From Rostratula benghalensis (lineage: Eukaryota > Chordata > Aves > Charadriiformes > Rostratulidae), in assembly GCA_013399305.1 (NCBI GenBank), contig VXAI01000015.1, positions 6,446,182-6,510,181 on the forward strand: DNA of 64,000 nt. Reading direction: 5' to 3'. The translations under genes were made by a program, and so were the position numbers. The notes beneath the pieces were generated by a model. It saw only the letters and a program-made list of their open reading frames with translations. It did no database searches and was not told the DNA's origin. Positions 20,310 to 51,291 of this stretch are shown piece after piece (positions within the stretch are counted from its first letter, which is position 1; each line of letters opens with the position of its first letter).

Positions 20310-21714
20310 CGTGCATCAGCCCCTGGAGGGAAGAGTTTATATCAGCAACCACGGGTGAAACCACCCTCACTCAGCAGCACCAAAAACCTTAAACCCAGCC
20401 CTGAGCCCACCACTGAGCTCCCAGCCTGCAGGGGTAGGTCAGGGTTACCCATCACACAGCCGTGGCCAGGCTGAATTTCACCAGCCCACAAAGGAAAGGA
20501 CAGCCCTCGCCTGCCCCGAGACCACCATCCCCAAGCGGGTTTTCCACCAGCAAAAACCTCCAGCAGGTTTTCCCCACACTTCTCATGTTTGTCCCTAGAC
20601 GTGATGACGAGAGAATTGCTGATCCCACCACGAGCAGGCACTAAGGGGCCCAAGATACATTTGCAGGCGACGCTGTGCCCCGTGGCCACCCCCTGGGGCT
20701 GGGAGTCACCAGGAGGACACTGTCCCCGCAGACAGACGCCAGCGAGGTGTGATGGATGCGGCAGCAGCAGTCAGCAGGAGGGAACGTCCTCCCCGAGCTG
20801 AACACAGAGTCAACCGCCCCATTATTTAAAATGCCAAGAGCAGGCACAAGCCAAGGGGAGAAATGAATTTTTAATATTCCAATTTGCTTTTAGAAAACAG
20901 ATTATGCATTGAGCTGGCATCCCCGTCCATCAGCCCGACCGGCTGCCAGCAGCCACAGGCCAGAGACAGTCTGATTTGTGTTCTCATTAACTCAAACAAC
21001 AAACTGGCACCCTCGGCAGGGCAGTATCGGGGAAATGCTTTCTCACAGCCACCTTCCCTCTACTGCTTTGAATTAATTGAGTGTTTACCACCTCAACGTT
21101 CCCAAGTGGCCACTGGCTCCCAAGTGAATCAGACCTTTGCTTGATTTCTAAACAGAAATTTCAATCAGACCAAAAAAATAAATAAATAAAAAAAAAAATC
21201 AAACCAACAACAAAACAATTAAGGACAGGCAGGGGAGTTTCTGAGGATGACAGTCCCTCATTGACACAACACAGCTGCTGTCTCTCACACCAGGGCCTTG
21301 CTGGTGGGATGGCATTTGGGTCTCGTGTCCCCTCCATCTGTGGACATCCACGGCAACAGGACCCTCTTTCCTACAGCTGCAGCATCGGGGTCAATGGACA
21401 CGGGGTAGGTGCCAACAGGAGCATCCCAGTGACTCCAGCGTGATGCTGCAAGACGGGGACAACCCCTGAATCCATCATGGCAGCACCCCAGGCTGGTCAC
21501 ACCCCAAACCTGGGGTCTCACCCCAAACTTGGGGTCTCAACTCTACCCTGCCACCAGGTTCGTGGCCACAGCGGGGCAGCTCCTCCTGTCCGCCCAGTCT
21601 GGCCCAGGCCCGGCCCTCGGCGGGGAGCCGGGAGCCCGGCTGCTGCGGTGGGAGCCGTCCCCAGCTGGAGGGGGCAGCCCTTCTGGATGCAACACAGGGA
21701 TCCTGCCCCACGCT

Positions 21715-21945
21715 GGCCCTTTAAGAGTTCGGTACTGGGTGTGCTGGCCCTTTAAGAGCTCAGCACGAGGTGTGCTGGCCCTTTAAGAGTTTAGCACAAG
21801 GTGTGCAGCCGCGCTAAGAACCTGGGAAGGAGCACTGGTACTTTAGGAGCCCGGTACTGGGTGTGCTGGCCCTTTAAGAGTTCGGTAGTAGGTGTGCTGG
21901 CCCTTTAAGAGCCCGGCGCAAGGCGCAGACCCTTTAAGAGCGGGG
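21715..21945. repeat. 31-bp minisatellite with CCCTTTAAGAG core (about seven copies)
   Basis: Units of about 31 bp start near 21715, 21746, 21777, 21837 (diverged, GTACTTTAGGAG), 21868, 21899 and 21928. Each has the core CCCTTTAAGAG, a variable middle, then GGTGTGCTGG. The array lies in ARL6IP4 intron 1, beside its CpG island. The unit after copy 3 is interrupted by about 30 bp of unrelated sequence. Confidence 0.85.
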
Positions 21946-23670: not shown

Positions 23671-26600
23671 CTACCACAAGGAACAGACATTCACAGTCTT
23701 GGGCACATCATCGAGGGTTTCTGTGAACCCATCTCCAAACCCCTCTGCTTCCACCAGCTCAGGTTTCTTGTTGCACATGGGGCAGAGCTGGTTTCGGATG
23801 GCAGATGATCTCATCCAAATAATGAGGTTCCAGCGTTCCCCGGAGGCAATGGGAAGTGCCCCATGGATCTGCCCTCCTCGGTGTAACAGCCCCCGGGCTC
23901 CCACGTGTTCTATCTCTATGTACTTTGGCACAGGGGTAGGATCCTGGAACAAAGAGAGCTGGATACAGCATTACATCAGAAATTCCCTTGCAGAACAGTG
24001 CTCAAATAGTTGAATTTTTTACTTGTTACTTCTTCACCCCCAGCACCCATTTCACCCTCTGAAATGCAACCACTTCAGGGGTGGCTTGGCAGCATTTTGT
24101 TCCATCTGTTTCCAGGTAAGACCTTCTGAGTGCCAGGTCCAGAGGCACCTGAGTTTCAATTAAAAAGAAAAAAACTGTTTCACCAGTCCAGGGGTGCTTT
24201 TATTTCTCTCTTGCCAAGCATCCCCTGGAAGTAGGGGCTACAGATTTAGGTTTAAGTCTCATCTGAAATAAATCACTTCTCTCTCTCTCAGCACCTCCCT
24301 GCTCATTATTGCAGTGGGGGAAAGATGGACTGGGTTACTTCCCTCCAGTTTCCTCTCTCTGACTTGGCTGCAATAAGCTTGAATATTGGTTATGTGCTTG
24401 TAGCAGAAAAGGCTGTTGTATAACCAAGGCATTTTAAAAAAGGGGGAAGGGACAGAGCAGATTTGACTGTCAGAAGTGAATAATTATTTTTCAGAACTCA
24501 GTTAATGCCTTGAAACTGGAGGGTGAGTGGGTAGTGGGGAAGAGAACCAGGGTCCAGATTAGGAATAAGCTCAGTACCTGGCTGAAATCACCAAAGTACA
24601 AGTTGCCTTCTGTGAAGTCTTTTCCCAGTGAAACGTTTAAGGTGACTTCTGCATTGTCATAGTGAGAGCTCAGATCCAGATCTTCGTGTGGCGCGTACTT
24701 GACGACAAATGCTTTATGGCTGTCCAGAGAAGCACCTCCCAGCTCCGGGTAAAGCAGCGTCGTTATGGGCCGCAGGTATTTTTCACGCAGGGGTGTGATG
24801 AAAGTTTCATCCATCCCAAGCTCGTTTAGCAAAACCTGTCTCAAAGAGAGGAGATGGCAACAGCTGACCAGCTACACCTGCTTCTTCATCAGAGCTGCTG
24901 CAGAGCTGCTTGTTCTCTTCCAACCTTGCTGCTTGCTCAGATAAAGAACTTTAGAGCAAAGGCTCCAGCTACAGGCAAAAGAAGGAGGCTCACGGTGAAA
25001 AGCAATGGTGAAAAGACAAAGTAAGATGAAAAGTTGTGTTCTTTAAAAATGGACTCCTTGATTTAAACGTGTATTACTTAACTACAAGGTGCTTCTTCCT
25101 CTGAGGTACCAGCTCCCATCCAGTCTCCTTACTCCTCAACCCTTTTACTTCAAAGGGGCTGTACTCAAACTGCTCTGTGCTCAAATTACAGATATTTTGG
25201 AAGGAAAAGGAATAGGAAGAGAGGAGATAAATGGTATCTGCATGTGAATGTGCCCCCTAAAGAAGCACAAGAGCTAGTGAGTCCTACCCCATAGTTATTC
25301 ATGGTGTTGGGCCTGCCTTTGGGCATGTCCGACTGCTCAAAGTTCTCCAGCTCATCCACAAACGCTTTGCAGAATTCTTCTGTGAACACTGGGAGTCGAT
25401 AGATCCTCTTATCTGTCAAGAGAGGGGAAGAGACCATTTGCTGAGGAAAATAACAGGTGACAGTGTTGTTTGCTGTCACACTGCCTAGCTAGACCGTGGT
25501 GGTGTCAGTGAGAACACGGGGCCCTGTGCTTCACTCGGTGTTCAGGCTGCTCAAAGGGCTGGCACGATTCCTTGGGATGTGTTTATTGTTTGTCATGTTG
25601 GCTGCTCGTTTCCAGGTTTTCCCATCCAATCAGGAGACCTGGCACTGATTAAAAAGCCTGCTGAATGTGCCAAGGACATGTTTTGAGCAGGTCTGAGGGG
25701 AGAGTGGTGAATCAACAGCTCATCACAGGCAGTGTGAGCTGGAAGGAGGAGACTCAAGGCCTTATTTAGGGGATGGAGCATTCCCCTTCTGGGAAGACCA
25801 GGGCTTCTGATCTGCCCTCTAAGGGGACTGTGTACCCTCACTACAAAAAGGACATTGAAGAGCTGGAGCGTGTCCAGAGGAGAACTACCAAGCTGGTGAG
25901 GGGTCTAGAGAAGAAGTCATGTGAGGAGAGGCTGAGGGAACTGGGCATGGAGAAGAAAGAGGAGGCTGAAGGGAGCCCTTATTGCCCTCTACAACTACCT
26001 GAAAGGAGGTTGTAGAGAAGTGGGTGCTGGCCTCTTTTCACTGGTGAATAATGACAGGACCAGAGGAAATGGCCTGAAGTTGTAGCAGGGGAGGTTCAGA
26101 TTAGATACTAGGAAGAATTGCTTTACTGAAAGAGTGGTCAGGCACTGGAATAGCCCACCCAGGGAGGGGGTTGAGTCACCATCCCTGGAGGTATTTAAGA
26201 AATGAGCAGATGTGGCACTTCAGGTCATGCTCTTGTGGTTAGATTGTGGGGGGGGCTGTTGTGCGTGGATGGTTGGACTCTGTGATCTCAGAGGTCCTTT
26301 CCAACCATCATGATGGGGAGCTCAGGATTGAGGACACAGAAGCTGAGATAAAGACAGAGTCAAAGGCTGTGTCTGGAAATTGTGTCTTGGATGTACCCAG
26401 GAGCCCTGCACATACACAACAGGAAAGCAACTTTGCAGCTTCTCCTCTACATTCTGTCAGCATCTCTGGTAGGGAGAGAGCTTCATGGATGCCATCACGG
26501 AAGCTGAAAACCCTGATGTCTTTTTAAAAGACAGAAATCTAGACAAACTATTTCAGCTCAGACTAATCAAATGGGATTGTCTAAAATCACTTTGGGATGG

Positions 26601-29600
26601 AAAACCAAGCTCCCTAGACTAACAGTGTTCCTTCAGCAGGCTCCCCCATGAGTTGGTGTACAACCAAAACCCAAGCCCTGCTGCAGTTACAGCCTCTGAT
26701 GAGACACCAGCAAACTGGGACTGGAAAAGCAGAAAACAGGATCTCATCCAGAGCATGACTGCTGCACAATACTGCCTCTCCAGAGACTCTTGTCAAGCAG
26801 AAAATAACATCCTGTTTGTCTCAGCTGTGTACCAAATCTGAGTTATTAAAAGATAGGGCTTGAAAACAGCTGTCATCACTGAAGTTGCAGTGCGACTCGT
26901 GAAGATCTTTGTGACTGATGTTTTGTTTTCTTTACCTGAGAAGGACTCGATGTAGCACAGGAGGCCATGGAGATCAGCATCTGGTGATGTGCAGTATCTC
27001 ACGATTTCTAGAAAATCTGGGGCCAGGAATGAATCCTGGCATCAAGAGAATGATGATAAAAAACAAATCACAATTAGCCTGTGCAGTCTTTTACAGCCCA
27101 AAAAGGAAACGGACTTCCAGGCAGCCACAGGAAAATACCATGTAGAGTCTAGGGAGCAAAACTGATAGTCACATTTGGGTTACTTCTGTGGCAGGAAATG
27201 CAGAATGTTAGTAGTGTTTTTCTTGGTGATTTAGGTAACCTGCTGCTTGCTCTGTTTCACAGGTTCCTGAGTATAACTGGCCAGATTTGTCATTAGCAAG
27301 ATGGGAAAGAGCCTGGCTCACATTATGGACTCCTAACAGGTAAGTGCAAAGTCTTTCCTAGTAGATTTAATATCTTGCCATGGCCTCAGCACAACAGAGT
27401 GACTGTGATCTGCTTTAAGCATTCCCACCTCCCCCAGATCACGACAGACAAGAGCAGAACAGGTAACAGCAGAACTTGTTACTAAAGGATCACAGAGCAA
27501 TAAATCTGTGTGAACTTGTTTGAGTGTTACTGCTGATCTGTGGCAATTATCCAGCTGGGAAGTCTTGGGTCCAGCCAAACACAAGGAAATTCAAAGCAGA
27601 GTAGCCCACAACAAAGAGGGCAACACCTGCCTGTGTGGTGGAGTGTACACATGCAAGCAGCCTGTTGCCCCATTTCATCTGACAGTAACTAGAACTCGTC
27701 TGTGAGTTAAGCCCATAAAGGCTTTTTCTGTGGCTGCTCATTAGACCTCACCAACCCCCTTTGCTGCAAGGTCTAAATTACTAATGGTATTGGGAGTCCA
27801 GTCCCACATGCTGCTGCAGCTTCAATAATGACTGTTACCTGGCTAAAAGCCAGGCAGAATCTTGCCTGGAGAACACACTACATTCTGAAAGTTTAATTCG
27901 GTTTCAACAGGCTACATTTTAGTTTTAATTCAGCTCAGCTCTAGCACGGTGAGCAATCCCAGAAAGAGGGCTTCCTACTGCAAAAATACTCAGGCAATTC
28001 CTTGGGTGCAAAATAGATTCCAAGCATGCTGTCTACCTGCAGAATGTACAGTTCTGGGTGTTTCCGTTTGTAGCACTTGGAGATGATGGCTTTGCGTTCC
28101 TCTGACTGATGAATTAACTGTTTTCTTCTCTGCACTTCTGCCTCAATCTACAAGTAAACAATAGGGCATATTGTTAGAAAATCAAAAGGGATAACCAAAA
28201 CAATTCCAGGAATTTGCTCATTGTTTTGAAACAGTTATTTTTGTTCTGGGCACCTCTGGGAGACAGTGTATGCCTTTGCTTTTCTGTAGTCAAGACAAGT
28301 CCCATAAATATCTGAAAAGCCAAATGCCTAAAAGGGATTTGAGACACGTTCTCATTACAAATGGCTTAAAAAATAACTGAAGTCTTTCCATGGATGTGTC
28401 AAGTGGAGCTGCAAGGTTTCAGCCCTTTCAGGCATTCTGACACCTCATGAATTGCTGGCCTAAACTTTGAGAGTCTGCCTTATGTTCTGACAATAGAAGC
28501 ATTGTCCAAAACAAAGACATTTGCTGGGAGGGAGACAGGACTTGTCATGAAGGGATTACTGCTAAGTGTTGTGGGGACAGGCTAATCTGTCACTCCAGAG
28601 GAAACAGCAGGACTAGCAGCTGGTTCAGGCAGCTCTTCCTATTTAATAAACCCCCATGAGATTAGTTTATAACATTCCTCAGCAAAAAAGGAAGGAGGGT
28701 GTTAGCAGCACCCCCTGCTCCTCACCCTGGCAATGATGTTATCAACCAACACCATTTTATAAGGCAAACATCCACTCTCTGTGAAGGAGCAAGTCCTGTA
28801 TTCATTCTCTTTCCCTCATTATCAGACCCTGAAGGTCCTATGAACAAACTAGACCAACCAAAAAGATTTCTTCTTCCCCTCCCTAAGAGCATCAAGGTTG
28901 CTGGGCACTGGGTCAGTGACTCCCTTCCTTGCTGGCTTTGAAGGTCTCAGGCACCTGGTCAGCCCGGTGGTGGTGATGACCCTGTCACAGAACAGGGAAG
29001 TGTAACAGCACCCAGAGCTCTGTCTATAAAATCAAGCATTTACAAGTCCCAAATGGAAACTTAGATCTGAACTGCTGCTGGAGAGTGAGAACTGTGACCC
29101 TCTGGTGAGCAGGGACGCCTCTAATGTCACTTGCTTTCTCCAAGGACTGAGTATCTCATAATCTTTTCTATGATTTTTGAATCTAGATTACGGTTGTTAT
29201 GTGGTACAGCAAACAACATGTGTCTGACCCAATCTGCGGAGGAACCAGGTGGTTTAAAATTATGGATTAAGTTAGGATCTAGGGGACTAGAAATCCTAAA
29301 TGAAGTTCTAAGTTCTGTGTTATGCTGCTTATTGTGCTGCACTGGTTCTGCTTGTAGAAATGCTGTGCCGTTTGAATCATAAATTCTGTGCTATACTAAT
29401 CATGATACACTGATAGGAAAATAAAGCTTTAATTATAACTACAATTTGGTGCTGGCATCATCCTGCTAAGGATCCCAGAAAGAACCTGTCTGACCCTTTA
29501 ACGTTGGGATGAAACTGGAGCTGGTTATGTGACAGATCTTTGTCCCCAGCCTGGTAGGACAGACAGTTCCCCCATTAGAGGAGAGCCCAGGGGGGATGTT

Positions 29601-30375
29601 CTTGGGATGTTCTTCTGCAGCAGAGCCCACGTGAACAACACCGTGGAACCCCTGGGCCATTCCACCTGAAGGCATCCTTTAAAAGTCATTGACAAAAGAA
29701 GGGACAAGGGAAAGACAAACTAAAGGGAAGCTGGGAGCCAGCTGACCAAAACCAGTTAGGCCAGATGGCACAGAAGGCCATTTAAATAATGTGTTGGATT
29801 ATTTACTTCCAGGGCGTTGCCAGTATAAACGCACCCCTGACAGCATCCAGCCCCGGGTCCAGACGCCGCCGGGGAATTCTTCCCTTCGGTCTCTGCCCGA
29901 CACCGGGATTGACCAGGACCGGGCTCCGGGGAGCTGCGGCCCGGCTCCGTCGGGGCTTCTGTCTCCATTGAACCCCCCTCGGCTCCCTCCAGGGCCACCC
30001 AGGCCACCCGTGTCCGTCGCGATTTCGCAGGGGTGGGGTCCCCGTGAGGTCTTCGCCCCTCACCACGGGAAACAAAGCCCCCGGCCAGCCCTGACGGGAT
30101 TTACCGGCCATTTACCTCCCGCACCGCGGCTCTGAAGTCCTCCTCGCTCCGGCAGCCCCGCTCCCACAGCGCCTGCAACACACCCGGCCCGTCACCCACC
30201 GTCCGGCCTCCGCCGCCGCCGGGTGGGGGGGTGCTCGCCGCTCCGCCCTTACCCGCCCGTGCTCGCGGCGGAGCTGCCCCTCATCCCGGTACCGGACGTG
30301 CAGCCCATAGCGCCCCACGAAGACGTTGTCGGAGAAGAAGCAGGCGCAGGCCCGGAACGGGCGGCGGGCGGACAT
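23671..30375 (-). CDS. OGFOD2: OGFOD2, 2-oxoglutarate and iron dependent oxygenase domain protein 2
   Basis: Minus-strand exons 30375-30253, 30172-30116, 28147-28037, 27035-26936, 25412-25288, 24835-24578 and 23943-23671 (TAG). All have AG/GT borders and consistent phases, giving 348 aa against about 350 in human. The N-terminal part (1-130) is family specific. [12 protein letters not shown] precedes the prolyl-4-hydroxylase-like double-stranded beta-helix. The iron ligands are H230 and D232 (SSHYDNAEV) and H285 (GGQIHGALP); R295 (SGERWNL) would bind 2-oxoglutarate. A C-terminal CPMC pair lies in [11 protein letters not shown]. All residues needed for Fe(II)/2OG oxygenase activity are present, but I know of no established substrate. 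The ATG at 30375 lies in a CpG island shared with the divergent integrase-derived gene. Confidence 0.96.
25829..26309 (+). mobile_element. CR1 LINE 3' fragment, antisense within OGFOD2 intron
   Basis: Typical CR1 3' reading: 'gagctggagcgtgtccagag', then 'gaggagaggctgagggaact', 'ctacaactacctgaaaggag', 'ccatccctggaggtatttaa', and finally 'ggtcctttccaaccat'. The frame is broken by stops and small indels, so it is an old dead copy. It lies between OGFOD2 exons 4 and 5, opposite in strand to the gene. The 5' edge is approximate. Confidence 0.92.
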
Positions 30376-31240
30376 GTTTCCCGCCGGCGGCGAGCACGGG
30401 CGGCGCCGGGCGCAGGTCCAGCCGCCAAACGGCTCCGCCGCGCGACGGGGAGAGCCGCTTCCGGCCGGGCCCAGGGTGCGTCGGCAAATTGCGAACGTGG
30501 ACTAAAACGAGAGGAGGCGAAACTTGCCCGTTGTGTCCCGGTTTAGCTTATTTTTTTGTTAGCTTTGTTTTGTTTTTTTTTTTCTTCCCCGTCATTTCGG
30601 TGGCGTCGCCGCGGTCTGCAGAGGTGCCTCTCTCTCCTCCACAGTCACCCCCCGCCCCGTTCGTGGCCGGGCGCCTGCCGCACTCCCATTCCGTGTCTAC
30701 CGCTGGCCAGGACCGCCGGGGGTGCGCGCTGACAGAGCAGGGGACTGCGGCACCGCGGCCGGGACACCCGTTCCCTTGTTGCTGGCGGGGGGTGCGAGGT
30801 GAGGTGTTGTGCCGAGGAGCGGCGCTGGGGCGGCTACTGCCTTCGAGTGTTATTTGCAGACGGTCCCTAAGAGCCACCGGCACGGCACGCCCCGCCCCTC
30901 CCCGGGCCGCGCCCGCGCTTGGGCGCGCGCGGCGGGTGTGCGCGCTCCCGCGGGCGGGGGGGGGGGAGCGCGGCCCCGGGGCTCCCGTCCCGGCCTGGGC
31001 GGCCCGTGCTGGCCATGGACTCGGCGCTGCAGGTGGCCGAGGAGGAGGTGGTGGCGGCCGAGTCCTGCGGCCCCAGCAGCAAGTTCGAGGACATCTACCG
31101 GCTGCTGGCCGAGGGCTGCTTCCCCCCCAGCTTCTGCTCCATCAAGAGGAAGAACCTCAAGCGCTACGCCCAGAAGTTCGTCGTCGACGGTGGGAACCCG
31201 GGTGGCACCGCGGGACAGCCCGGACGGGGCCTGTCAAAGG
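29860..31240. promoter_or_regulatory. CpG island, shared bidirectional promoter of OGFOD2 (-) and GIN2-like gene (+)
   Basis: Very GC- and CpG-rich DNA covering OGFOD2 exons 1 and 2 (minus) and exon 1 of the integrase-derived gene (plus). The two start codons (30375 and 31015) point away from each other, 639 bases apart. No TATA box was seen between them. A T-rich stretch at 30550-30590 splits the island. The long open frames here are by-products of high GC. Confidence 0.75.
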
Positions 31241-34200
31241 AGGGAGGGGATGGGGTGGGGGGGCCGAGGCGGTAGCTCCTGCCTGGGCCGAGGAGGGGAT
31301 GGGGTGGGGGGGCCGAGGCGGTAGCTCCTGCCTGGGCCGAGGCCTCCCCGAGGGGCCTGGCGAGGCCCAGGGACGCTGCCGAAGTGTGTGGGGACAGTGA
31401 CCGGCTGGCAGGCAGGCAGGCAGGCAGCAGGCAGAGACGTGCTGGCCCTCCCCCCGCAGATGAGGACAGATATTCCTTCCTCACAGCACAGGGAGGATGG
31501 GTGGTGGTTTCTCTGCCCTCTGCGGAGAGGGAGAGGTGGGGCGGGTTTATCGTAGCAGAGGACTTTACTCAGCCCTGAGTGCGGAGGAGCAGCCCCCTGG
31601 GTTTATTTGGGGGTGATTCCAGTTTAGCAGCTTCTCCAGAGGTGTAACACAAGCTCCCAAGACAACAGTCCCCCTTTTGTTGTCTCACCTCGTTTTCCCA
31701 CTGTAGAAAATGGCCCTTTCACTGGAACCGAGTAGCTGAAGTGGCTGTGAGAGCACGCCATGTGTCATTTTAGACAAACCTCTCCCATCTGCAGGCGGCT
31801 GCCTCTACTATGTGGGACCCAAGAAGGAGGAAAAGCGTGAGGTGATCGTGGATCCTGAGCGGAGGCGGCAAGTCTTTCTGGAAAGCCATTTCACCGAAAT
31901 CGGGAACCATCTGGGCCAGAAAAAGACCGTGCACCGGATTCAGAGCCGGTACTACTGGCTGGGGATTGTGAAGGATGTTGTGGACTGGGTAAGTTGGGAG
32001 CGTTGATCACGTCAGTGACACCAGTATTTACAGGACGTTCAGGCAGCAGTCCCAAGTGAGCAGCTAGAAGAACCCTGATGCAGGGATGATGTCGTTTCTA
32101 GTGCCTGTTGCTTTGAAGCCACGCACTAAGTAACTCTGCAGGTGAAACTTGTTGGAACATCCCAAGGCAGCTGGATAGATTGGAGGATGTCTTTCCCTTG
32201 AGCGTCAGGAAACCTGCCCAGGTAGGCCTCCTCGTGCAGGGCAGTGGAGGGGAATGTGGGATTGTTTTAGATAAGCGTTGCTGAGCCTGGCTTTGAGCAG
32301 CCTGGATTCCTACCAGAGCTGCCCAGTTCCCTAAACTGCTCTAACAGGAGGAGCTCGGTGTTTCCAGTGTCTCTCCTCAGCTGCTCTGCCTTACCTGTTT
32401 TCTTGCCAAAGGTTCCCTGCAGCAGGGCTCTGCAAGAGTGTGGTTTGAGGAAGCGTGGTTGCGTTGCATGGTCTGAGCAGCCCACGCTCCTCCAGCATCC
32501 TGGGGCTGATGATTTTTCTAGCCAGCAGTAGAAGTTTAAAGTACAATAAATGTTTCCCTAAAAATAGGGTGAGAAATATCATAGCTATAGGCCATGTTGA
32601 GAAAATTGGTTATTGTGTCAGAGAAAGCTGTCGGATGAGTGTTGTGAAAGGTGAGCTGTGTCAACCTGTTGTGTTTTGTCCTCTCTTGCGTCCTGCTATT
32701 TTTATTGGGTAGAGGGAAGCTGCTTGGGCGTGCTGTCCCTCTCACCCCTTCATAACCTGTCCAGTCTGAATCTGACAGAATCTGCCAGCACGTTTTAAAG
32801 TCCTCTGATAAAATCTTTTCCCTTTCCAGATCAAAATGTGTGAAACGTGCCAGAACGCAGAGCACAACAAGAACCTATCGCGGAAAGCACGGCCTGTCAA
32901 AGTGGAATCTCCCTGGGAGGTGCTGGGATTAGACATTCACGGTGAGTGTTTGCAGCTGGCAGACAGGCTCTCCCAGGTGGGCACGCCAGCCGTGAGGAAA
33001 GCGTGGCAGACTGGGTGCTGCACACATGCTGGGGAAAGCTGCCTGCGGTGAGGAGGTGCCAAGGAGGCCACTGCAGCCTTACCAGGGTGCAACCTGATCC
33101 GTGGGGCTGGCTCGGCTCCCTCTCCACACATAATGGGACTTGTGGGCGGCCGTGCTGGCATTACTTCCCAGAACTGAGGCTGTGGTGGGTGTATTTTTTG
33201 CTGGCAAGGGTCACAGAAATGTACTGGCCAAATGACATTGCAGTAAAGGAGTGAGTTGTGGTCATTTTCGCAGTGCTTGTTTTGCTGGGCTGGGTTTTCA
33301 GCTTGCCTCATTTCAGTGATCTTATGGCATCACATTGATTTTTCTTGATGCTTGTTTATGCAGGACCTTTTCCTGAGACAAGCCAGAGCAATACACATGT
33401 CCTCCTTGTGACTGACTACTTCACTAAGTGGGTTGAGGCTGCTCCTCTGCAGAAGAAAGATCCCTTGTCAGTGGCTAAAGCCCTAGCTACGGTTTTTTAC
33501 AGGTGGGTTCTGCTGTTGTTGGTCACATTGCACCCCTGCAGTGAGATGGGGTGCACTGGGATGCGTGCTGCAAAAATACTCAATGTCCACAAGAGCAGGA
33601 ACTCTCCTGTCTACAGGAGAGACCATGCAGTGCCTCTCACTTGCTCTTTACAAAGTTGCTCTTTTGGGAAGAACCTGTTATCCTCTTGTTGCCAGGGGAG
33701 GTGGATAAAGAGGCAGAGGTTGTTCTCTGAGTAGCTCCAAGGCCAGGAGGGCTCATGCCCCAGTTCTCTGCAGAAGCTTTACAACTATTCCTTGACCCCT
33801 CTTATGCAGTGGTTATTTTACATTCAAATGGTACATGTCACCATTTAACAATGTCCTTGTGGAAAATGCACACAGCCAGTAGAGGATTGCATTTGGAGCA
33901 AGAAACTTGGCTTGTTTCTCCTGCTGCCTTATCATTCAATAGCAAACAGGCTTGGCTGGTCTGGAACAGATGGAACCAGCAGACCTCTCTCTGCTCTTGG
34001 GGCGGTGAGGTCATCTCAGCCTCTTTAGCACCAGCTCCACTGGAGAGTATCTATCCCTTTTGTATCCCATTTCCTGTGAGGGTTGAAGTCCTCTGGCTCT
34101 GCCCTGCAGCTGATGGAGTAAAACCGGTTGTGTCCCCTCTTCTTGTTCAGGTTTGGAGCGTCCAAGAACATTTACACCAGTCAGAACTGGGACTTCTGTG

Positions 34201-36932
34201 AGGAGGTAGGTCAGGTGCTGGGTGGTTCAGGGTAAAGCAGCATGACCTTCAGCAGTGGATTTGGGCAGCAGAGTTGCAGTGTGCCATTAGTAGGGGGCAA
34301 GGAGCTGATGTTGCCTTCCCCCTGCCCCAGCCCTGTTGCCAGCAGGAGATGATTTGCCAGTGCTTTCACTCTGTCAGAGATTTAAGATTGTGGTTCTGCG
34401 ATGCAAGTCCTAGAGCCACACTGCAGCTTCTCTGCTCAGAAGGGAAGGTCTTTGAGGCCATGTTCATGAGCTTCCTGCCCTACCCTGGGTTTAACTCAGC
34501 TTCCCAGTGCTGTGGGAAGCCTCAAGCATGGGAACAGTCATTGCAAAACATTTTCTCAGGCTCTAACTTTTCTGGGGACCTTTTTTTTTGCTGAGCAGCA
34601 TCTCTTGTCATGGGGACAGAGCCGTCTTGTGCTGTGGGTGCTGCTAGCTGCTGGGGTGCAAGCCTGCCTTGTTCTCCTGTGGGCATGACCCCCACCTTTG
34701 CAGGTCAGCCGGCATTTATGCGAGCGCTGGAACATCTCGCAGATCCTCACCTCTGCAGAGCCCGCAGACTGCACAGGCCTGGATGAGCGCAGCGCCGAAG
34801 TCCTCAAATCCTCCATCTGCAGCGTGGTGAACGAGAAACCCAGTGAGTGGGACACCCACCTCGACCCCGTGCTCTTCGATTTCCGCACCTCAGTCAACTC
34901 CGTCACAAAGTACACCCCCTTCTTCCTCATGTTCAACAGATACGTGTGCCTGTCGTCCGAGGTAACTTCTCGATAAAGGAGGGCCTTGTGGGAGGTTTGC
35001 CACTGGTGCGGTTACAGACCAGCACCCAAGTGTCTGTACCTTGCAGGTGGATTTTGCCAAGGACTCCAAGGAGCTGGGGGCTAGCTCTGGTAAGGCAGAC
35101 AGCCTCCCACCATTCACAGCCACGGTTCAGGAGCAGCAGAATGCAGTGAAAGAAATTGTAAGTCTTGCAGTGCTTTGAAATCACTCTGCAGCTAAGTCCC
35201 TGCAGGGTCCCATTGCACCCGGCTGCACAGGAGCTACACAGGGCAGATTTGTCCCTACAAGGATCATGCCACAAAATGTGTCTGCTCAGGTGCTCAGAGA
35301 GAACCCCTGGCCCCGTCTGTCCAGAAGTGACATCCCCTAGCAGTCCTCTGTCTGCAGGCTCTCTGCTGTCACCAAGCATAGCAGGTAGCTGATGGGCAGG
35401 GAGGCTGCGTGTCCAGCTGGGAAGGAGCGAGGCAGAAGCTGGTTAATCACTGCCTGAGACTCCACAGGCCTGGCCTGAGAGGAGAGGTGGCTGGTGGCAC
35501 CTCGATGTGTGTCAAGGGCAGCAGGAGCAGAGCCGGACCCTCTGAGCTGGCACCATTTGGTGTGACAGGGAAGCTGGTGGTGTTGCTGCTCAGAGCTGTG
35601 ATGAAATATGAGGGACTGTCTTACCCCATCAGAGCTAATGAGAGCTGTGTCCCAGCCTGCCCAGCACCCTGCCTTGTAATCTGCATCTCAAATCAGGCAA
35701 GGGAGTCCCCTCCTTAGGCAAGGACAAAAAGCCTTTAGGTACATGCTGTGTAATTAAGAAAGTTAAAAGCACACCCACCCCAGAATAGGAGGAGAGGAAC
35801 TGGGGAGGTTGGGGCTACCATGGAGACGAGTGGTCCAGTGGGCAGAGAGCTGGGTTTGGGGAGCAAGGCCAACATTCAGTTCCTGACCATCTCTTACGTG
35901 CTGGGTGACCTTGGGCCAGTCATTTTGTCTCCCTGTTTCTTGGTCTCCTGACCTGGAAAATGACCTCAGTGTCTCCTATAAAGTGCTTGGCGACCTGTGT
36001 GCCAAAAAATAATAGACAAGGCTCAAGTGCTTTGCTTGCTCAGTCATTTGTTACACTCAGACAGGGTTATGCTCTGATCCCACCAGGACTTTGATTCTTC
36101 TTGCCAGGGAATAGCAGCAGTAAAACAGGACAGGAGGGAGGAGGCCCGGGAACTGCACGTGTGGGATCTGTTCCCAGCAGATCCCTTTGGCAGCTCAGGC
36201 TCACTAGCTCGGATTCCCCTTTTGAGAAAGGGAGACACCCATTGTGGCACAGGACAGCGAGAGCTCTGTCTGGGTGACAGCCTGCTCCATGAGGACATTT
36301 CTGGTGTCCAGGTGGCTGACACTCATCTGCAGACGGGCCAGGGTTGGGGCTGTAGTTAACAGGAGGTGATCAAAGTTTCCTTTGGCTCTGTGTTACTCCA
36401 GCCGAGATCCCTTTCTGCCCTCTACAGCTGGAGAGCTAACGGCTCCCCTGAGCAGAAGGATGAAATCACAATTTTTGATTGAAAGGTCTCCTGCTAGTTT
36501 GGGGTTAGTGAGAATAAGGCTGGAAAGACCTTGCTTAGTCCCTCCCTTGCTCCCGGGTGTAACCAGCCGTGCCAGCGCTTGCTGGCACATCCTGGGCTTG
36601 CCCAGCTGAGCTCTGCACGCCGCAGCGCTGGCTCCCGCTTGCCAAGCTCACGTGAGGTGGATTTTTTTAAGTGGCATCTCAAGGCCCAACCCAAGCAATT
36701 TGCTTTCCAGGTGATGGCCAACGTGACCACAGCCTACAAGCGGGAGCGGAAGGGTGTGAAAAGGAAAAGTCGGGGCCTGCCCTCTCTTTCCTTCAAGGTG
36801 GAAGAGAACGTGTTTGGGAGCAACGCTGCCAGCTCCCTGAAGAAGCTGAAGAAGGGCCAGTTTGTGTCGTTTCAGATCGAGACAGTCCTGCCACCTGAAC
36901 AGAGTATGCCCAGCATGAAGAAAACCAGTTAG
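31015..36932 (+). CDS. GIN2: GIN2-like domesticated Ty3/Gypsy (GIN-type) integrase gene
   Basis: Eight exons: 31015-31189, 31795-31988, 32830-32941, 33364-33502, 34151-34205, 34704-34961, 35047-35157 and 36711-36932 (TAG). All have AG/GT borders, the phases chain, and 421 codons are open. Residues 90-130 form an H2C2 zinc finger (H90, H97, C127, C130) with the typical YYW between. The RNase H-like core follows: D158 in LGLDIHGPF, TDYFTKWVEAAPL, then S217 where the second catalytic Asp should be (NIYTSQNWDF), and E253 (GLDER), exactly 35 residues later. WDTHLDPVLFDFRTS and TPFFLMFNR match the end of gypsy integrase cores. The C-terminus is basic (KRERKGVKRKSR). There is no gag, protease or RT and no LTRs. 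Known family: GIN1/GIN2, derived from GIN transposons, with GIN2 reported as lost in placental mammals. GIN1 or a KRBA2-like relative are alternatives, so the symbol is tentative. Confidence 0.85.
31242..31341. repeat. Tandem duplication of a 49-bp G-rich unit
   Basis: Two near-identical copies of a unit containing GGGGATGGGGTGGGGGGGCC and GGTAGCTCCTGCC, 49 bp apart, in intron 1 of the integrase-derived gene. Confidence 0.9.
31405..31426. repeat. (GGCA)n microsatellite
   Basis: Five GGCA units in intron 1 of the integrase-derived gene. Confidence 0.85.
35830..36006 (+). mobile_element. MIR/CORE-SINE-like ancient tRNA-derived SINE
   Basis: It starts with an A-box-like stretch (GTGGTCCAGTGGGCAGAGAGC). 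The core reads GTGCTGGGTGACCTTGGGCC, then 'ccctgtttcttggtctcctg', AAAATGACCTCAGTG and AAAGTGCTTGG. The order matches the MIR consensus (tRNA head, core 'tgtgaccttgggcaagt', 'cctcatctgtaaaatg', 'aaagcgctt'). It lies in the last intron of the integrase-derived gene. Called by memory of the consensus. Confidence 0.75.
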
Positions 36933-37434
36933 CCTCTGGGGCTTTTCTGGGGGTCCCACAGGGCCGGGGACAGGAGCACGAACTGTCCCTGAGGTTTGTG
37001 GCCCAGCTGCATGGGAGTCCAGGGCACAGAGAATCCTGTCCTGGGGAGAAAGGAAGGGAGAAGGTTCAGATGTCTGTTCAGTCCCTTCCTGGTCCAGGTT
37101 TGCCCTTGGACCATCCCAAGGGAAGTAGCACCATCCTCATGGATGCTTTGGCAGCGAGAGGCTTGGTCCTGCCAAAAAAGCTCTATGACTATGGCATGGA
37201 AACTGTCCCCTGGGGAGTAGTTGTGTCAAAGCCCAGGGAATGATCTGGGGGTGGAAATGAGAACCAGAATGTAGACCCAGCTGAACCACGCTGCAGTTTG
37301 TTTCCTACAGCTTAAAACTGTCCTCCCCACTGTCCGCCTGAACATCATGCCTGGTCTGACTGCTTCCCCAGCAGATGTGGGAATGGCCTGGAGTGAGCTT
37401 TTTTTTTTTTAAGTTTTAAGCACTATTTAGCAGA

Positions 37435-37440
37435 AATAAA
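37435..37440 (+). terminator. GIN2: GIN2-like gene poly(A) signal (AATAAA)
   Basis: A canonical AATAAA about 500 bases after the stop codon at 36932. The implied 3'UTR (36933 to about 37460) has no other feature. Confidence 0.75.
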
Positions 37441-37460
37441 ATCAACAATATAACACGATG

Positions 37461-38200
37461 TTTTCATTTCTGGTTATCCAGGCAGAGAAAATGATTTTTA
37501 TTTTTTTTTCCTTTGGAACATCACCATTCTGTTCTCTCCAGAAATGTAATGAACTCCATAAACCCTGTGGTCTGTTCCTGTGCTGGTGGGGGTTATAGGG
37601 AAGTTTTTAAGTCCAACGCTCAAAAAATACAGGGAAACTGGGATAATGGCACTGACCTCTGTCACCTGTATCGCCCAGCTGGATGCAGAGATGGTGGCCA
37701 GGGAAGAGCCTGAGCACTGTTATCCCTCTGGAGCTGCCGCAGGGACTTGAAGGGGAAAAATAATTGATAAATTAGATTTCTGGAAAGTGAATCCTACTCT
37801 GCATTGGGAGTTAATTTAAAGCCCTTATTGAGACCAAGTTTAGGGGTTAGTTAAAAAAAACCAAACAAACAACAAAAACAACCCTGTTGAGCCCCTCTTT
37901 AGGGGCTAATTTAAAAAAAACCAAACAGTATCGAGCCCTTGTCCTGGTTGTTTTGAAAGCCAAGCCGCGTGTTGTGTTTTCTCCCTCCGCTGCAGAAATT
38001 AAGTGAAACCAATAAAATAATATTTAAAAAAATAATGAAAATGTTTATTTTTGAAAAAACAAAACCAAACCTTTTTAAGGTGGGGAAACCCCTTGGGCTG
38101 CCCTTGCTGGGTCGCGGCAGGGTTTAGGCAGGGTGGTACCTGGGGGGTCGGGTCCCCGGTTAACGGGAGGGCGGAGCCGGGAGGGCGCCGCAGCAAGGGG
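37461..38200. other. Intergenic between GIN2-like gene and ABCB9
   Basis: Low-GC sequence with an imperfect internal duplication around 37845-37930: two stretches of the type TTAGGGG...TTAAAAAAAACCAAAC, about 70 bp apart. No exon was recognised. GC rises sharply after 38150. Confidence 0.6.
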
Positions 38201-38660
38201 GCGGGGCCAGGAGGGGCGGAGCCATATCAAAAGCCACGCCCCCCACCGACCTTGTTCCCGGGACGCGCCGCCGCCGGACAGGACCGGGTCCACCTCTGCC
38301 GTTGCTACCGGTAAGACCCCATCCGGGCGGGTCGGGAGTGCTTTGCCCTTGGTTCTGCGAAGGGGGAAACCGTGCGTTCTCCCCCCCGCCTCCCCCTGCC
38401 GTGGCGGGCACCGGCGTCTCCCCCGGGAGGAGCAGCTCCTACGCGGGGGGAGGCTGGGGACCTTGGGCATCTCCTGCTTTGTAGCTGGGGACGCCTTTGC
38501 GTGTGGCAAGGGGCTGCGCTGGCTGCCGCCTCCTCCTCCTCCTCCTCGTTCTCCTCCTCCTCCTTCGCCGCCGCCGCCGGGCCGGAGCGGCGCAGCTTTG
38601 CAGCGGAGGGCAGCAGCGAGCACCCTGGGAAGCGCGTCCAGCTCCTCCCTGGCACCGCTG
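38200..38660 (+). promoter_or_regulatory. ABCB9: ABCB9 CpG-island promoter and 5' non-coding exon
   Basis: CpG-rich DNA with Sp1-type boxes (GGGGGCGGGGCC, CCACGCCCCCC) and a weak TATA-like CATATCAAAAG at about 38223. A non-coding exon from about 38250 would end at 38310 (TACCG/GTAAGA) and splice to 39861. A CTC/CCG-rich tract follows at 38525-38580. The start site is inferred. Confidence 0.65.
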
Positions 38661-39860
38661 CTCTGTTTTACCTCCATCCTTCCCTCCCCACCCGCCCCAG
38701 CAACCCCACTCTTCCCCAGATTGCACCTTCTGCCCTGTCTTACTCCACTCTTTAGCTTTTTATCCCTCCTGCCCAACCGTGGAGCCGCTCTCAGCCCAAG
38801 GTGCTGCTTGACCGGTGCTGGGGACTGCCCTTTCCCCCCAAGGTTTGCTTTCGGGTGGCTGCAGAGGTGGCTGCGGTCACGCAGGCCGGAGCGTGGCCGA
38901 CCCACGGCATCCTTTGTGCCATGCCTTCCGCACCCTGCACCGTCATGAGCTGCTTGGCCAGCACAAATCCGAGGAGAGGGTACCTCCCTCCTGCTGACGT
39001 GCAGCACCTCTGGGCACAGCACAGGAGCAGGTGAGCAGCTCACTCAGCTACAAGTCGAGCTTTTCACCCTTTTCTGTGTCAACCCAAATCCAGACCCACC
39101 GTTGCTGTCACCTGTCAGACCCATGGGTGACAGCGAAGGCAGCATCCCGCCCTGGAGCCTCCCTCTCCTCATGGGATGCAGCTCTGGATTTCCATCCCCC
39201 TTTTTAATTTCCTCTTGGGATCTTCCTTGTGTCGCTGAATTGCACGCTGGCAGCACGGCAGGTTTAGTGGGTTACCCCAAATTAATATTCAAGAGGGCTG
39301 AGGACAGCAAGGTGTGACAGGCTGGTGTACCTATGAGTTCTTCTTCTTTTGATGGGGGGGCGGAGGGGAGACGTGTTACAGAGCTGAGCTGCTCTCCCTT
39401 CTGCTTTCATATGGGTTTGATTGAGCACTCGGTTTCAGTTTTGTCTGGGGAAAGGTGAGGAGGGACTCTCAGATCACAAATGTTTAATGCCTACAGGGCT
39501 CCATCGCGCAGGACACGTGGGCTACACACATGTCCCAGCATCGCCCAGCTGCCAGGGACCTGGTGGCTCCACAGCCAGGGGAGGGGCTGAGGATTCCCAC
39601 CAAATGTGCAGGTTTCTGCTGAGAGATTCGGGATGGGTGGAGGCATCTGGGAGTGAAGTTTGTCTTCATTTGTGCTTCTCATTTTATGGAATGTCTCAGA
39701 GCGTATGCATCAAGAGAGGGGAGTAAGGAGTAGATAGTGGTGTCTGGGGTCAGGATATGCTGGTAGGGACCTGGCACAGTTGTCCCCCTATGCTGCTTCC
39801 CTTTCCCCACCATGTCCCCAGGGCAAATAACAACTCTGTCCCTTTCTTCTTACCCTGCAG

Positions 39861-45900: not shown

Positions 45901-48900
45901 TGCTCCCCTCCTGCTGTGACCTCGCAACCTGAACATGCCCAAAGCATCAGGGAATTGGCACAGAAGGGATCAGGCTGGCCCCCATGAAGGGCAGAGTCCT
46001 GACTGTCTCCCAAGCACGTTTCCTGGTGTGAAGGATGCAGGGATTATGAAGCTGCCTGTTAAATTTCAGGCTTCATTAAAAACTTAATTAAACTTATTTA
46101 TATTAGCTTTTTTTTTTCTTTTTTTTTCCCCTGGAATAGGCTGCAAGCTGCTGCGTTGGCAGCACGTTAGCAAGATGAGATTGTGGGTGGGATGGTAGAG
46201 CCCACCCAGGGCTGCCTTTCCCTTGCAAACGCGTAAGCTTGGCTAATTGAGGCAGAAATGATCAAGTTGAGGTTTTCTCACAGCCAAGTGTGTTTTTGGC
46301 GCCTTCGTGCAGCGGCAGAGCAGAGCTGGAGGCAGCATGCCTGGCTCTCACCATCTGTTCAGATGACTTGCAGGCTCTGGTGATGTTTCCAGGCTGTGGC
46401 TTTGGTGTGAGTTTGGTTTGGTTTGGGGGTTTTTGTCCCTCCTGATGGGAGGGGCAGTTGCAGTAGAAGCTGTTCTGCAACTCTGGGCTTAATATTGAGA
46501 AGAGCCAACATGACAAGTGTTTATTCCAGGGAAGCTGGTGTCAGGGTGCAGCTGTTGTAGTTGGGAAGGCACAATGGTAAATCCACTGGGACCACATCCC
46601 AGCAGCCACATGGTTGTCCCAAAAGGTCCAGCCTGGACCTGCTCTGCCTTTGAGACATGCGTGCCAGGGAATGAACTGGCTGCCCTTGGGGCTGGTGCCA
46701 TGCGCTGCCTTACTTGGACTTAGTTCAACCCTTGGGCTGGGGAATTGCTGGTCTTGAGCCAAGAAGGGTGGGTGGAAGATTCTTGTAGAAGCCTCGGCCG
46801 TGTATCTCCTGGTGCATGTCTTCTCTTCCCAATCCATCTGTGTCCTTCTGTTCCTCTCTGAGCCTAGCCATCCACAAACCCCTTTAGATGCCCATTCCCT
46901 AGATATGTCTATATAGCACCTCTGTACATTGCACAGGAGGAAAAGATTCCTTTTTCTGTGTCTGATGACTGTAGTTCATGTTAGATGATAGACTCGAGAA
47001 TGCTTCAACCATTCTCCCTACAAGTCTCACCAATTGCATTTTCCATCACACGGGAGGGTCTCACTGTTGTCTCTTCCCTCCAAGTCCGTTGGCTCCGTCT
47101 ACAGCGGCCTGATGCAGGGAGTGGGAGCTGCTGAGAAGGTGTTTGAGTTCATTGACCGCAAGCCAACCATGGTGAATGACGGATCCCTGGCCCCAGACCA
47201 TGTGGATGGCAAGGTGGAGTTCAGAAATGTGACGTTTTCCTACCGCACTCGCTCTGCAACGCAGGTCCTCCAGGTGAGCCCCACAGGCACAGAGTGCTGC
47301 CCACCACGAGGCATCACATGCTGCTTCTCCATCGTGGCCATAACCGATCCCTAGCTCGCAGGACATCAGCTGCCCTTTTGGAGATGCATAAAAGCAGGCT
47401 TGACAGCATGCTGTAAAATGGATTATAAGGAACAGCGGGTGTTTAGGGCTGGCATTCCTTACAAGGAATGAGATTTATTAATAAAACCCTTGTTCCCTGC
47501 TCAGGCATTAAACACGTCAGCGTGGTGCAGGGCTTTGTGCCAAGCTGTCTGAGACTGTTTCTATGGGAGAGGGGCTGGGGTCACAGGGCAGGGTGAGGCA
47601 GCAGAGAGGTTAGTTTGTTTTGCAGTTTTTAGAGGTCCTGCTACATCAGCAGGCAAATTTGAAGCTATTTGAGAGGCTTCTTTCTTTTTCAGAGCCAGGA
47701 GACATGGCTGAGGTGGCACATCACCAAGGTGGAGTGTCACCATGGCCAGATTCCGGCTACCTCTCTTGCATAGTGCCTGAGCCCCTGCCCCTGGATCCTG
47801 GGAAAAGCCAGGACCTGAGCATGCTCTTCCATCCATGTTGCAGAATGTGTCCTTCACCCTGCACCCTGGCAAAGTGACAGCGCTGGTGGGTCCTTCAGGG
47901 AGCGGGAAGAGCTCCTGTGTCAACATCCTGGAGAACTTCTACCCTCTGCAAGACGGGCAGGTGCTGCTGGACGGGCGTCCCATTAACATGTACGATCACA
48001 AGTACCTGCACTCAGTGGTACGAGCGACTGTATGAGTATTCTCGCTATCGCCTGTCGTGGTCAGAGGGGATGGATGGTAGCGTTGCATGTTGTTTTGGAT
48101 TTGATCTGGCAGCTTCTGAAATGTCCAGGAAGCTGGAGGCTGGAGGTGGTCCAGGCAATGAGTTCAAATAATCTGTGGGGGCGTAAGGGAAAAGGATGGA
48201 GAGTGGTTTTGTGGGGAGGGGGAAGTCTGAAAACACAAGAAACATGTTTTGTTTTGTAATTTTTGGCCAATGCAGTAGAAATATGTTTTTAGTTGCTGGA
48301 TTATTTATTTTCTAAATTGCATTTGGAAAAAGAAAAATGTTAAGGTAGTAAGTGTTGGAGGAATGCAAAAGATCTTAAAGTAAATCTCAGCTAATGGGGA
48401 GTTAAATCTCTTGGGATCCTGGCACTAGCTGGAGCACCAGAGGGGCTGGTGGTTTCCCAGGAGAGGTGTGCAGCCCCCTCAGCTCCCGTCTGTGTGGCAG
48501 CACAGATCAGCCTTCATCTCCTCTGCAAGTAACTGCCTTCTTTGTTTGCCCCCAAAGCAAATGGCCTCACCAGTCAGCAGGAAAACCTGAAAACAATTGA
48601 TCAGAGACAGGCTAGAAAGCCAAAGTCAGTGTGACTAATTTACATTCCTTGCCCGTACTGTGGAAAAATTAAAAGACAAGCTGGTCTTTCAGCTTAGAAA
48701 GCTTGGTGTGGTATTAGGAGCATAGGGAGAAGTCAGTTAAAATATGACCATGTCCTGCTGGCTCTCTTCGTGCCCAGTTCAGAGCAATAATTGGGAGGGT
48801 TCAATTTATTTTGAGTGTTTGACAAAGCAGGCTGAATTTGAGAGTGAGCACCAACAATGGCTGTAAGGTAGGACACGGAAGCTGTTGCTAAGCAATTAAG

Positions 48901-51291
48901 GAATTGCAGCAATGTCCCTAACTTGTTAATTTTGGATTAAACATGCAGGAAGGCTCACCCACATGGCCTGAGTGTGAATACTGGCCTCAAATAGAAAATC
49001 AGCAACACCCTGGGACGGGGTCTCTCCAGCCTGCCTTGTCCTAGCAACTGGTTTCCCATTCTGGGTAGAGCAAACAGTGATGAGAATGACAAGTCTGGAG
49101 CAAAACCACAGCAGAGTCTTGGCAGGGGAAGCCTGTCCCAGATGCCAACCTACCAGCCTTGCATCAGGCTTTTTTCCTGCAAAATGGCTTCCCAGCAGAT
49201 GATGCAAACTGGTCTGGGGCTGCCACTGGGCACCCTGTCGTTGGCATCCTCTCTCGAAGCTCATGTTGAGAAACTTCTTTTCTTGTTTTAATGGTGAGGC
49301 TCTGTCTGCTTACCCAGAAGGAACAAATGCCAATGACCTGAGATGCCAACCAGATATTCTTCTGCTCCCAACCACCTGCTCTTCTCTTCCTTTCTGCAGA
49401 TCTCTCTGGTGAGCCAAGAGCCAGTGCTGTTTGCCCGCTCTATTGCGGATAATATTTCTTATGGCTTAACTTCAGCCTCCTTCGAGTCAGTTGTTCAGGC
49501 TGCCCAGAAGGCCAACGCACACACCTTCATCATGGAGTTACAGGATGGATACCACACAGGTACCAAAATCCCTCTGCACTTGAAAGTGTTTTGTCCTTTG
49601 GTTGCAAAGCAGAAGTGCCTACCTGCTCTTTGCTTCAAAGCATGACACCATCCTGATTCCACTGGCTGGGAGCCGAACTTGATGGCAGCTCTTGATTTTT
49701 ATTTTGACCTCTTCTTCTCTCCCTTGACCCAACAGAGGCAGGTGAAAAAGGAGCCCAACTCTCAGGTGGCCAGAAGCAGAGAGTAGCAATTGCCAGGGCC
49801 TTGATCCGAACTCCCCCCATCCTAATTCTGGATGAAGCCACGAGTGCGCTGGATGCGGAGAGTGAACATGCGGTGAGTGGCTGACATGGGTGTTTGGGCC
49901 AAAGATACAATCTAGGTTTGGAGGAAAGACTGCAGCTCCAATTTCTAGCCCGTGGACAAGCTTAGTCTTGACATGGTGCAATCAGAGGTTTGGGCAAGAT
50001 GCTAATTCCTGAGCAGGAATTTGCTTTCCAACACTGCTGTAGCCACCAAGAAGGGAATAATCCTGTGCTCACAGCAGCTGGCGCCTGGCAAACCTCGTGA
50101 GATAGGGATCTCTGCTGATTTTTAAAATGTGAAAAGTGTTTATTGGCATGCAGCAGCACTGTGCAGACTTTTAGGACAGGTTATGGAGGAAAAACCTAAA
50201 GAATGGTACTGCAGCAGGCAGACCAGGACTGCCTGAGCTAAAATCCCAGCTGAGGCACCGAAGAAACCACACTGGCAGTAAAGGCACTGAGCTTCCTGTG
50301 AAATGAGCTGGGTTTAACTGGCTGGGATGTCACAACCAAACAGCTCTACCACTACCAGATCAGCCTCACTGGCCCAATGATATGAGGGAAAGCTACCTCA
50401 AAGTTGAGGTGTGAGGTGGGGCAGCACGAGCACTTGACCTTGGAGCAGCCTGTGGGTTTGCATGTCCTCAGCCATGTATGTGGTATCTGATGCCAGCCAG
50501 GGTCTGGTTTTGGCTAGCCAGGGGTGTAAGTGTGATGTGGTCTGGTGGCCATCTGCCTGCCTACCTTACACCCAGCAGATAGCCTCACTCTTCTGAGCAG
50601 CTGCATTTACCAGGTATTGGCTTCCCGAAGTCCATGCCAACACCACGTGGCCTCCAAATTTGTGGTGCAGCTCTAACAAGAACCCAGCTGGCAGAATCAG
50701 ACCTGTGTGCATACAGCACCTGAGGGCTGGCTGGACTGAAACGGTCTTTTGGGCTGCACAGTGAGAGCCGGGAGCTGGGACGGACGTGTTGGAGCTGGTA
50801 GTGCTGCAGGGAGTCTTGTGTCCTCTGCGTAGCCAGAGAAGAGCAAACCTCCCGTTCGCAGCTCTCTTCACACAGAGCCACAGAGCTGCTGTTCTCCCTT
50901 CCAAAGCGGAGCCGGGGATGCTCAGGCACTAATGGCTTCTCCTCCCGTGCAGATTCAGCAGGCGATTTACGGCGACTTGCAGAACCACACGGTGCTGGTC
51001 ATAGCCCACAGACTGAGCACTGTCGAGAAGGCACACAACATCATTGTGCTGGACAAGGGCCGCGTGGTGCAGCAGGGCTCGCACAAGGAGCTGATGGAAG
51101 AAGGAGGCCTTTATTCCAAGCTGGTGCAGAGACAGATCCTGGGGCTGGAGGGAGGCGGCGGGGACAGTCGCCAAGCCCCAGCCCGGGGGGATTCAGCGAA
51201 GGTGCCCAGCGGGCTGGAGGAAGAGTTCAGGATAGACCATTCCCTGCCAGCCACGGCACAGGACGATCACACCACCGTGGCTCACAAGTGA
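39941..51291 (+). CDS. ABCB9: ABCB9 (TAPL), lysosomal ABC peptide transporter
   Basis: Eleven coding exons: 39941-40553, 40895-41009, 41509-41639, 42693-42898, 43789-43986, 45623-45751, 47085-47273, 47844-48017, 49400-49559, 49736-49872 and 50953-51291 (TGA). The phases chain and give 796 aa (human about 766). Residues 1-180 form the four-helix TMD0 that in this family directs the protein to lysosomes. The six-helix ABC membrane domain follows (to about 465). The nucleotide-binding domain has Walker [10 protein letters not shown] at 543-551, Q-loop Q591, signature LSGGQ at 647-651, Walker B ILILDE ending at D671-E672, and H-loop H703. All are canonical, so an active ATPase is expected. Known role: a homodimer that moves cytosolic peptides into lysosomes. 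The C-terminal tail after [10 protein letters not shown] is Gly/Asp-rich and differs from the human tail. Confidence 0.97.

Follow-up and report, generated by a model that had tools for sequence, protein, structure and literature searches.

GIN2 gene and its identity

The window analysed in this study is a 64,000-nucleotide stretch of the genome of the bird Rostratula benghalensis (contig VXAI01000015.1, positions 6,446,182 to 6,510,181 of the forward strand), which contains a GIN2 gene on the + strand at 31015-36932, flanked by OGFOD2 on the left, in head-to-head orientation, and by ABCB9 on the right. Exon 1 (31015..31189) carries the start codon and an N-terminal extension and ends in phase 1 with a GT donor. 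Exon 2 (31795..31988, GT-AG) encodes the zinc ligands H90 and H97, while exon 3 (32830..32941) encodes the zinc ligands C127 and C130 and the first catalytic Asp, D158. Exon 4 (33364..33502) belongs to the RNase H-like core, exon 5 (34151..34205) contains S217 at the position of the second catalytic Asp and exon 6 (34704..34961) contains E253 at the third catalytic position. The linker helix begins in exon 7 (35047..35157), and exon 8 (36711..36932) encodes a basic low-confidence tail and the stop codon. All eight exons lie on the + strand, and a sequence scan found a likely polyadenylation signal, AATAAA, on the same strand at 37435..37440.

The joined exons comprise 421 codons and a TAG stop, the seven introns all have a GT donor and an AG acceptor, and the intron phases chain as 1, 0, 1, 2, 0, 0 and 0 with the frame kept throughout. 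The original prediction of a complete eight-exon gene was therefore confirmed, and a pseudogene was ruled out by the intact, properly spliced frame. A CpG island (29751..31250, no strand assigned; G+C 0.67-0.74 and CpG observed/expected 0.82-1.13 in 500-base windows) spans the OGFOD2 start and GIN2 exon 1. It is a probable two-way promoter of both genes, from which GIN2 would be transcribed.

The best match of the product was a woodpecker protein, which aligned end to end with 92% identity over 421 residues (E 8.1e-263), so that chance is excluded. For comparison, the GIN2 set consisted of the best 120 of 237 matches and the GIN1 set of the best 120 of 196; both are clusters at 90% identity that include isoforms and partial rows, and gapped rows were excluded from the triad counts. 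Where named, the members of the GIN2 set are jawed-vertebrate proteins (some rows are nameless), with marsupials present and no named monotreme or placental. The five GIN1 rows compared were 28-30% identical to the window protein.

In a 40-row tree the window protein fell inside a GIN2 clade of 28 rows (100/100), and GIN1 formed a separate clade of 12 rows. The woodpecker was nearest (98/89), followed by a turkey-like row and the crocodile, and then by turtles and squamates, without a settled order between them. Marsupials, frogs and the coelacanth lay further out, and sharks joined before the ray-finned fish (92/90). GIN1 identity was ruled out by this tree, and the bird's own GIN1 was found separately on another contig, C445. 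Searching the bird's own 1.09-Gb genome with the GIN2 protein gave 16 matches, eight of which were the exons in the window; the other eight were only 22-32% identical to the protein, two of them on C445, the home of GIN1. The GIN2 exons are single-copy in this genome. The tree, the synteny, the single copy and the exon count together make the gene, as predicted, almost certainly the bird GIN2 orthologue.

Domains, catalytic residues and origin

Pfam analysis of the 421-residue product recovered the predicted H2C2 finger (Integrase_H2C2, 1.8e-17). The predicted RNase H-like integrase core was also matched, but weakly: the rve hit (5.7e-05) scored 23.7 bits, below the cut-off of 32.6. The zinc ligands, two His and two Cys (HHCC), are intact in the window protein, and each was kept in 119 of 119 readable GIN2 rows; 67 sites are near-invariant among the 120 proteins. 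The catalytic triad, Asp-Asp-Glu (DDE), reads D-S-E in the window protein (D158, S217, E253). Among the proteins listed, it was intact in none of 116 GIN2 sequences with all three sites readable, versus 65 of 87 GIN1 rows, and the third position in GIN2 may be D, N, E, S, H, C, G or K. The label "integrase" therefore holds for ancestry and not for activity. The first Asp is present in the window bird and in the woodpecker and starling rows, replaced by Ala in the turkey and turkey-like rows, and found in 0 of 6 named frog rows. Birds were described as devoid of this Asp (Chalopin 2012), so our result is a refinement: it is not missing from every bird.

A C-terminal GPY/F-type motif was detected by motif scan in 113 of 120 GIN1 tails versus 0 of 120 GIN2 tails; a looser GP[YFCL] occurred in six GIN2 tails outside the context of the motif. 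A GPY/F domain was reported in GIN proteins (Chalopin 2012), in contrast to these GIN2 tails, and we suspect that the motif meant there is the GPF located in the GIN2 core at residues 161-163. In the woodpecker GIN2 model, most of the core was predicted with a predicted local distance difference test (pLDDT) score >90, a helix occupies residues 335-365, and residues 373-416 have pLDDT <50. The fold of GIN1 was poor (mean pLDDT 44.3) and was not used.

The gene was examined for features of mobile elements at 29500-39000. No direct repeat of at least 25 nt brackets GIN2; of two direct-repeat families, one lies within intron 1 and one is entirely downstream. Three inverted pairs of 27-39 nt are only 72-79% complementary, and no pair of at least 25 nt exceeds 79% in this interval, shorter pairs not being sought. 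Hence no long terminal repeat (LTR) or terminal inverted repeat (TIR) was seen. The 421-residue product has no Pfam match to gag or reverse transcriptase (RT), the remainder of the window not being scanned for them. The prediction of a gene lacking LTR, gag and RT agrees with these results.

A search for longer relatives gave 66 proteins, including two known GIN2 rows and four GIN2 or GIN2-ABCB9 proteins; 19 of the remaining 60 were hand-picked for a 38-row tree of the integrase region to avoid near-copies. Proteins without RT, from the sponge Ephydatia or with "Em" names (taken to be the same sponge), were 35% identical to the query across 95% of its length; their scores reached 201 bits, whereas the best RT-bearing protein scored 154 bits. 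The four sponge proteins scanned contain PHD and/or Ulp1 domains and are termed Ginger1-like on that basis; these domains are reported for Ginger1 transposases (Bao 2010). In the tree, four sponge proteins without RT clustered with GIN1 and GIN2 at 97/91, and GIN1 joined GIN2 at 94/93. P0254, a fifth protein without RT, was placed with the RT rows. Fourteen rows were labelled RT, 11 of them with an RT or RT-RNase H Pfam domain, and four RT rows were flagged for long branches (P0287, P0293, P0299 and P0303).

Three GIN2 introns, after residues 58, 123 and 225 (the ends of exons 1, 2 and 5; phases 1, 0 and 0), match introns of the bird's own GIN1 in position and phase; the other four have no counterpart among the GIN1 introns examined. 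The first two GIN1 introns were located by script and the third, apparently with a GC donor, by eye; visual inspection of the alignment was used to match the positions. This GIN1 lies at C445:418000-427500, where five matched stretches correspond to residues 1-428 of the 527-aa killdeer GIN1. According to Bao 2010, three universally conserved introns are shared with Ginger1-5_HM. The sponge grouping, in line with Bao 2010, points to a DNA transposon of the GIN/Ginger1 type as the source of GIN2 and away from a gypsy retroelement, which sharpens the predicted "gypsy/GIN-type" origin.

Function and alternative explanations

As the overall explanation, we consider it probable that this gene is the GIN2 orthologue, a single-copy host gene of transposon descent that encodes a non-cutting binding protein. 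A GIN/Ginger1-type transposon would have given rise to the host gene before sharks and bony vertebrates diverged. Judged from its sequence, the protein is very probably not an active integrase; a cut-dead, zinc-dependent binding protein is the most likely function, and it would act in the cell as a binder without cutting. The zinc-binding N-terminal domain and the dead RNase H-like core would hold a DNA, RNA or protein partner, and the basic tail may help nuclear entry or nucleic-acid contact. We lean towards the zinc domain as the chief carrier of this putative function. GIN2 is 61% identical between shark and bird over 399 residues. A frame left to drift would not be expected to stay open and conserved for so long, and the gene is therefore expected to be kept by selection.

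Several observations weigh against this explanation. GIN1 also has a well-conserved zinc domain (0.85) and an even better conserved N-terminal extension (0.90), so a conserved zinc domain is by itself not distinctive of GIN2 function. The window protein has D158 and E253, so that it lacks a single catalytic residue. The four GIN1 proteins scanned with Pfam likewise show no C-terminal integrase domain, which leaves the motif scan as the basis of the GPY/F contrast. Sharks grouped with the coelacanth and tetrapods and not outside the bony vertebrates (92/90, midpoint root). ZBTB11 has been cited as a precedent, yet while point mutants of its finger are reported to fail, deletion of its whole N-terminus still rescues.

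In an alternative reading, GIN2 would have retained integrase or nuclease activity by means of further conserved acidic residues close to those lost, a possibility left open by Chalopin 2012. Among readable rows, D178 is invariant (118 of 118) and D221 is found in 90 of 116, and the confidently modelled core and the presence of D158 and E253 in the window bird fit as well. However, in the alignment with foamy virus integrase S217 lies opposite an Asp and E253 opposite a Glu, which we take to be its catalytic residues. At these columns the RT-less sponge-type proteins read SDNG and GLDER, in support of this register, and the third position varies as described. The sponge-type comparison makes it unlikely that the alternative acidic residues rebuild an active site, and we regard an active GIN2 as improbable. 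A more elaborate scheme, which we hold to be doubtful although less so than retained activity, makes GIN2 a dedicated pseudo-integrase that early lost catalysis and its multimerising C-terminal module; its zinc domain would read nucleic acid or protein, and its job, perhaps in early development, would have passed to GIN1 or been lost separately in monotremes and placentals. Absence from both of these groups would need two losses.

A functionless, neutrally drifting relic with an intact frame would account for the loss of the first Asp in two bird rows, the variable tail and the reported absence of GIN2 from placental mammals (Chalopin 2012), but the shark-to-bird identity and the 67 near-invariant sites make this very improbable. 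The least credible reading is that the locus is no gene but what is left of a gypsy LTR retrotransposon or an endogenous retrovirus. The product does have integrase-type domains, and integrase cores are numerous in this genome (148 PF00665 matches, from 150 of 248 candidates scored); the eight spliced exons, the orthologues across jawed vertebrates and the RT-less state of the best-scoring mobile-type relatives speak against it, and the domain scan, the repeat scan and the single copy led to its rejection.

The GIN2 gene and its locus are already described in print (Bao 2010, Chalopin 2012), and the window gene resembles the published one in its eight coding exons, its OGFOD2-ABCB9 locus, the kept HHCC and the DDE that is not conserved. 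The window thus adds one further bird for a known gene, with the triad, zinc-ligand and GPY/F counts and the introns common to GIN1 as new detail. GIN1 shares the zinc domain, the core and the three introns with GIN2, but differs in sequence, contig, a mostly kept triad and a GPY/F-type motif, which predicts different biochemistry of the paralogues. Ginger1/GIN DNA transposons are similar in zinc domain, core and the grouping with PHD/Ulp1 sponge proteins; GIN2 differs in its broken DDE, its one copy and the lack, within the scans made, of the GPY/F-type motif, PHD, Ulp1 and TIR. In a 2026 report, Imagin of malacostracan crustaceans is likewise a Ginger1-derived host gene with the zinc domain kept and DDE lost, although its domestication is reported as independent and it lies within an MMUT intron. 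ZBTB11 has an HHCC finger resembling that of integrases, and repression requires the ligands of this finger to be intact; it differs in that the finger is joined to a BTB domain and zinc fingers, with no integrase core mentioned in the accessible part of the source. GIN2 itself is an ancient host gene that was built from a protein of transposase type, and in the literature searched, with most subscription journals outside its reach, no later paper on its function was found.

Neighbouring genes and minor observations

The predicted location between OGFOD2 and ABCB9 was supported on both sides. On the left, an exon-bearing frame on the minus strand (24497..24871) has an OGFOD2-like Pfam match (2.7e-08), and a frame near 30115-30501 reads by eye as the OGFOD2 first exon. 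On the right, an exon-bearing frame with the Walker A motif (47781..48029, + strand) matches ABC_tran and has ABCB9 as its best solved chain (1.6e-30). A second frame with the ABC signature and Walker B (49708..49878, + strand; ABC_tran 2.6e-12) is by itself not ABCB9-specific, as ABCB1 chains score better than ABCB9 (2.9e-20). Pfam scans of the frames at 23677-23970, 20025-20315 and 50833-51285 gave no match, and Rfam at gathering scores found nothing in the window.

In three fish annotations (P0241, P0243 and P0244), GIN2 runs into ABCB9 as single proteins of 1027-1282 aa, which are likely to reflect either neighbouring genes fused in the gene models or read-through transcripts. Reading through exon 7 into intron 7 (35047-35187) gives a short ending, VSLAVL, followed by a stop, and the turkey-like protein P0007 ends in VSLAVP; a short form retaining intron 7 may be shared. 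In intron 1, a 49-base G-rich unit is tandemly duplicated at 31243-31342 (two copies, 100% alike).

Elsewhere in the genome, C678:4860500-4869000 resembles a provirus: three long open frames (502, 1214 and 873 aa) look gag-, pol- and env-like by eye, and no direct repeat of at least 40 nt was found within the 8.5 kb. It may represent an ancient bird retrovirus kept in the genome, of the kind of Ovex1. Beyond OGFOD2, a minus-strand SR-rich frame is ARL6IP4-like by eye and has no Pfam match; between the two, at 21712-21941, lies an array of units of about 31 bases that are roughly 72% alike.
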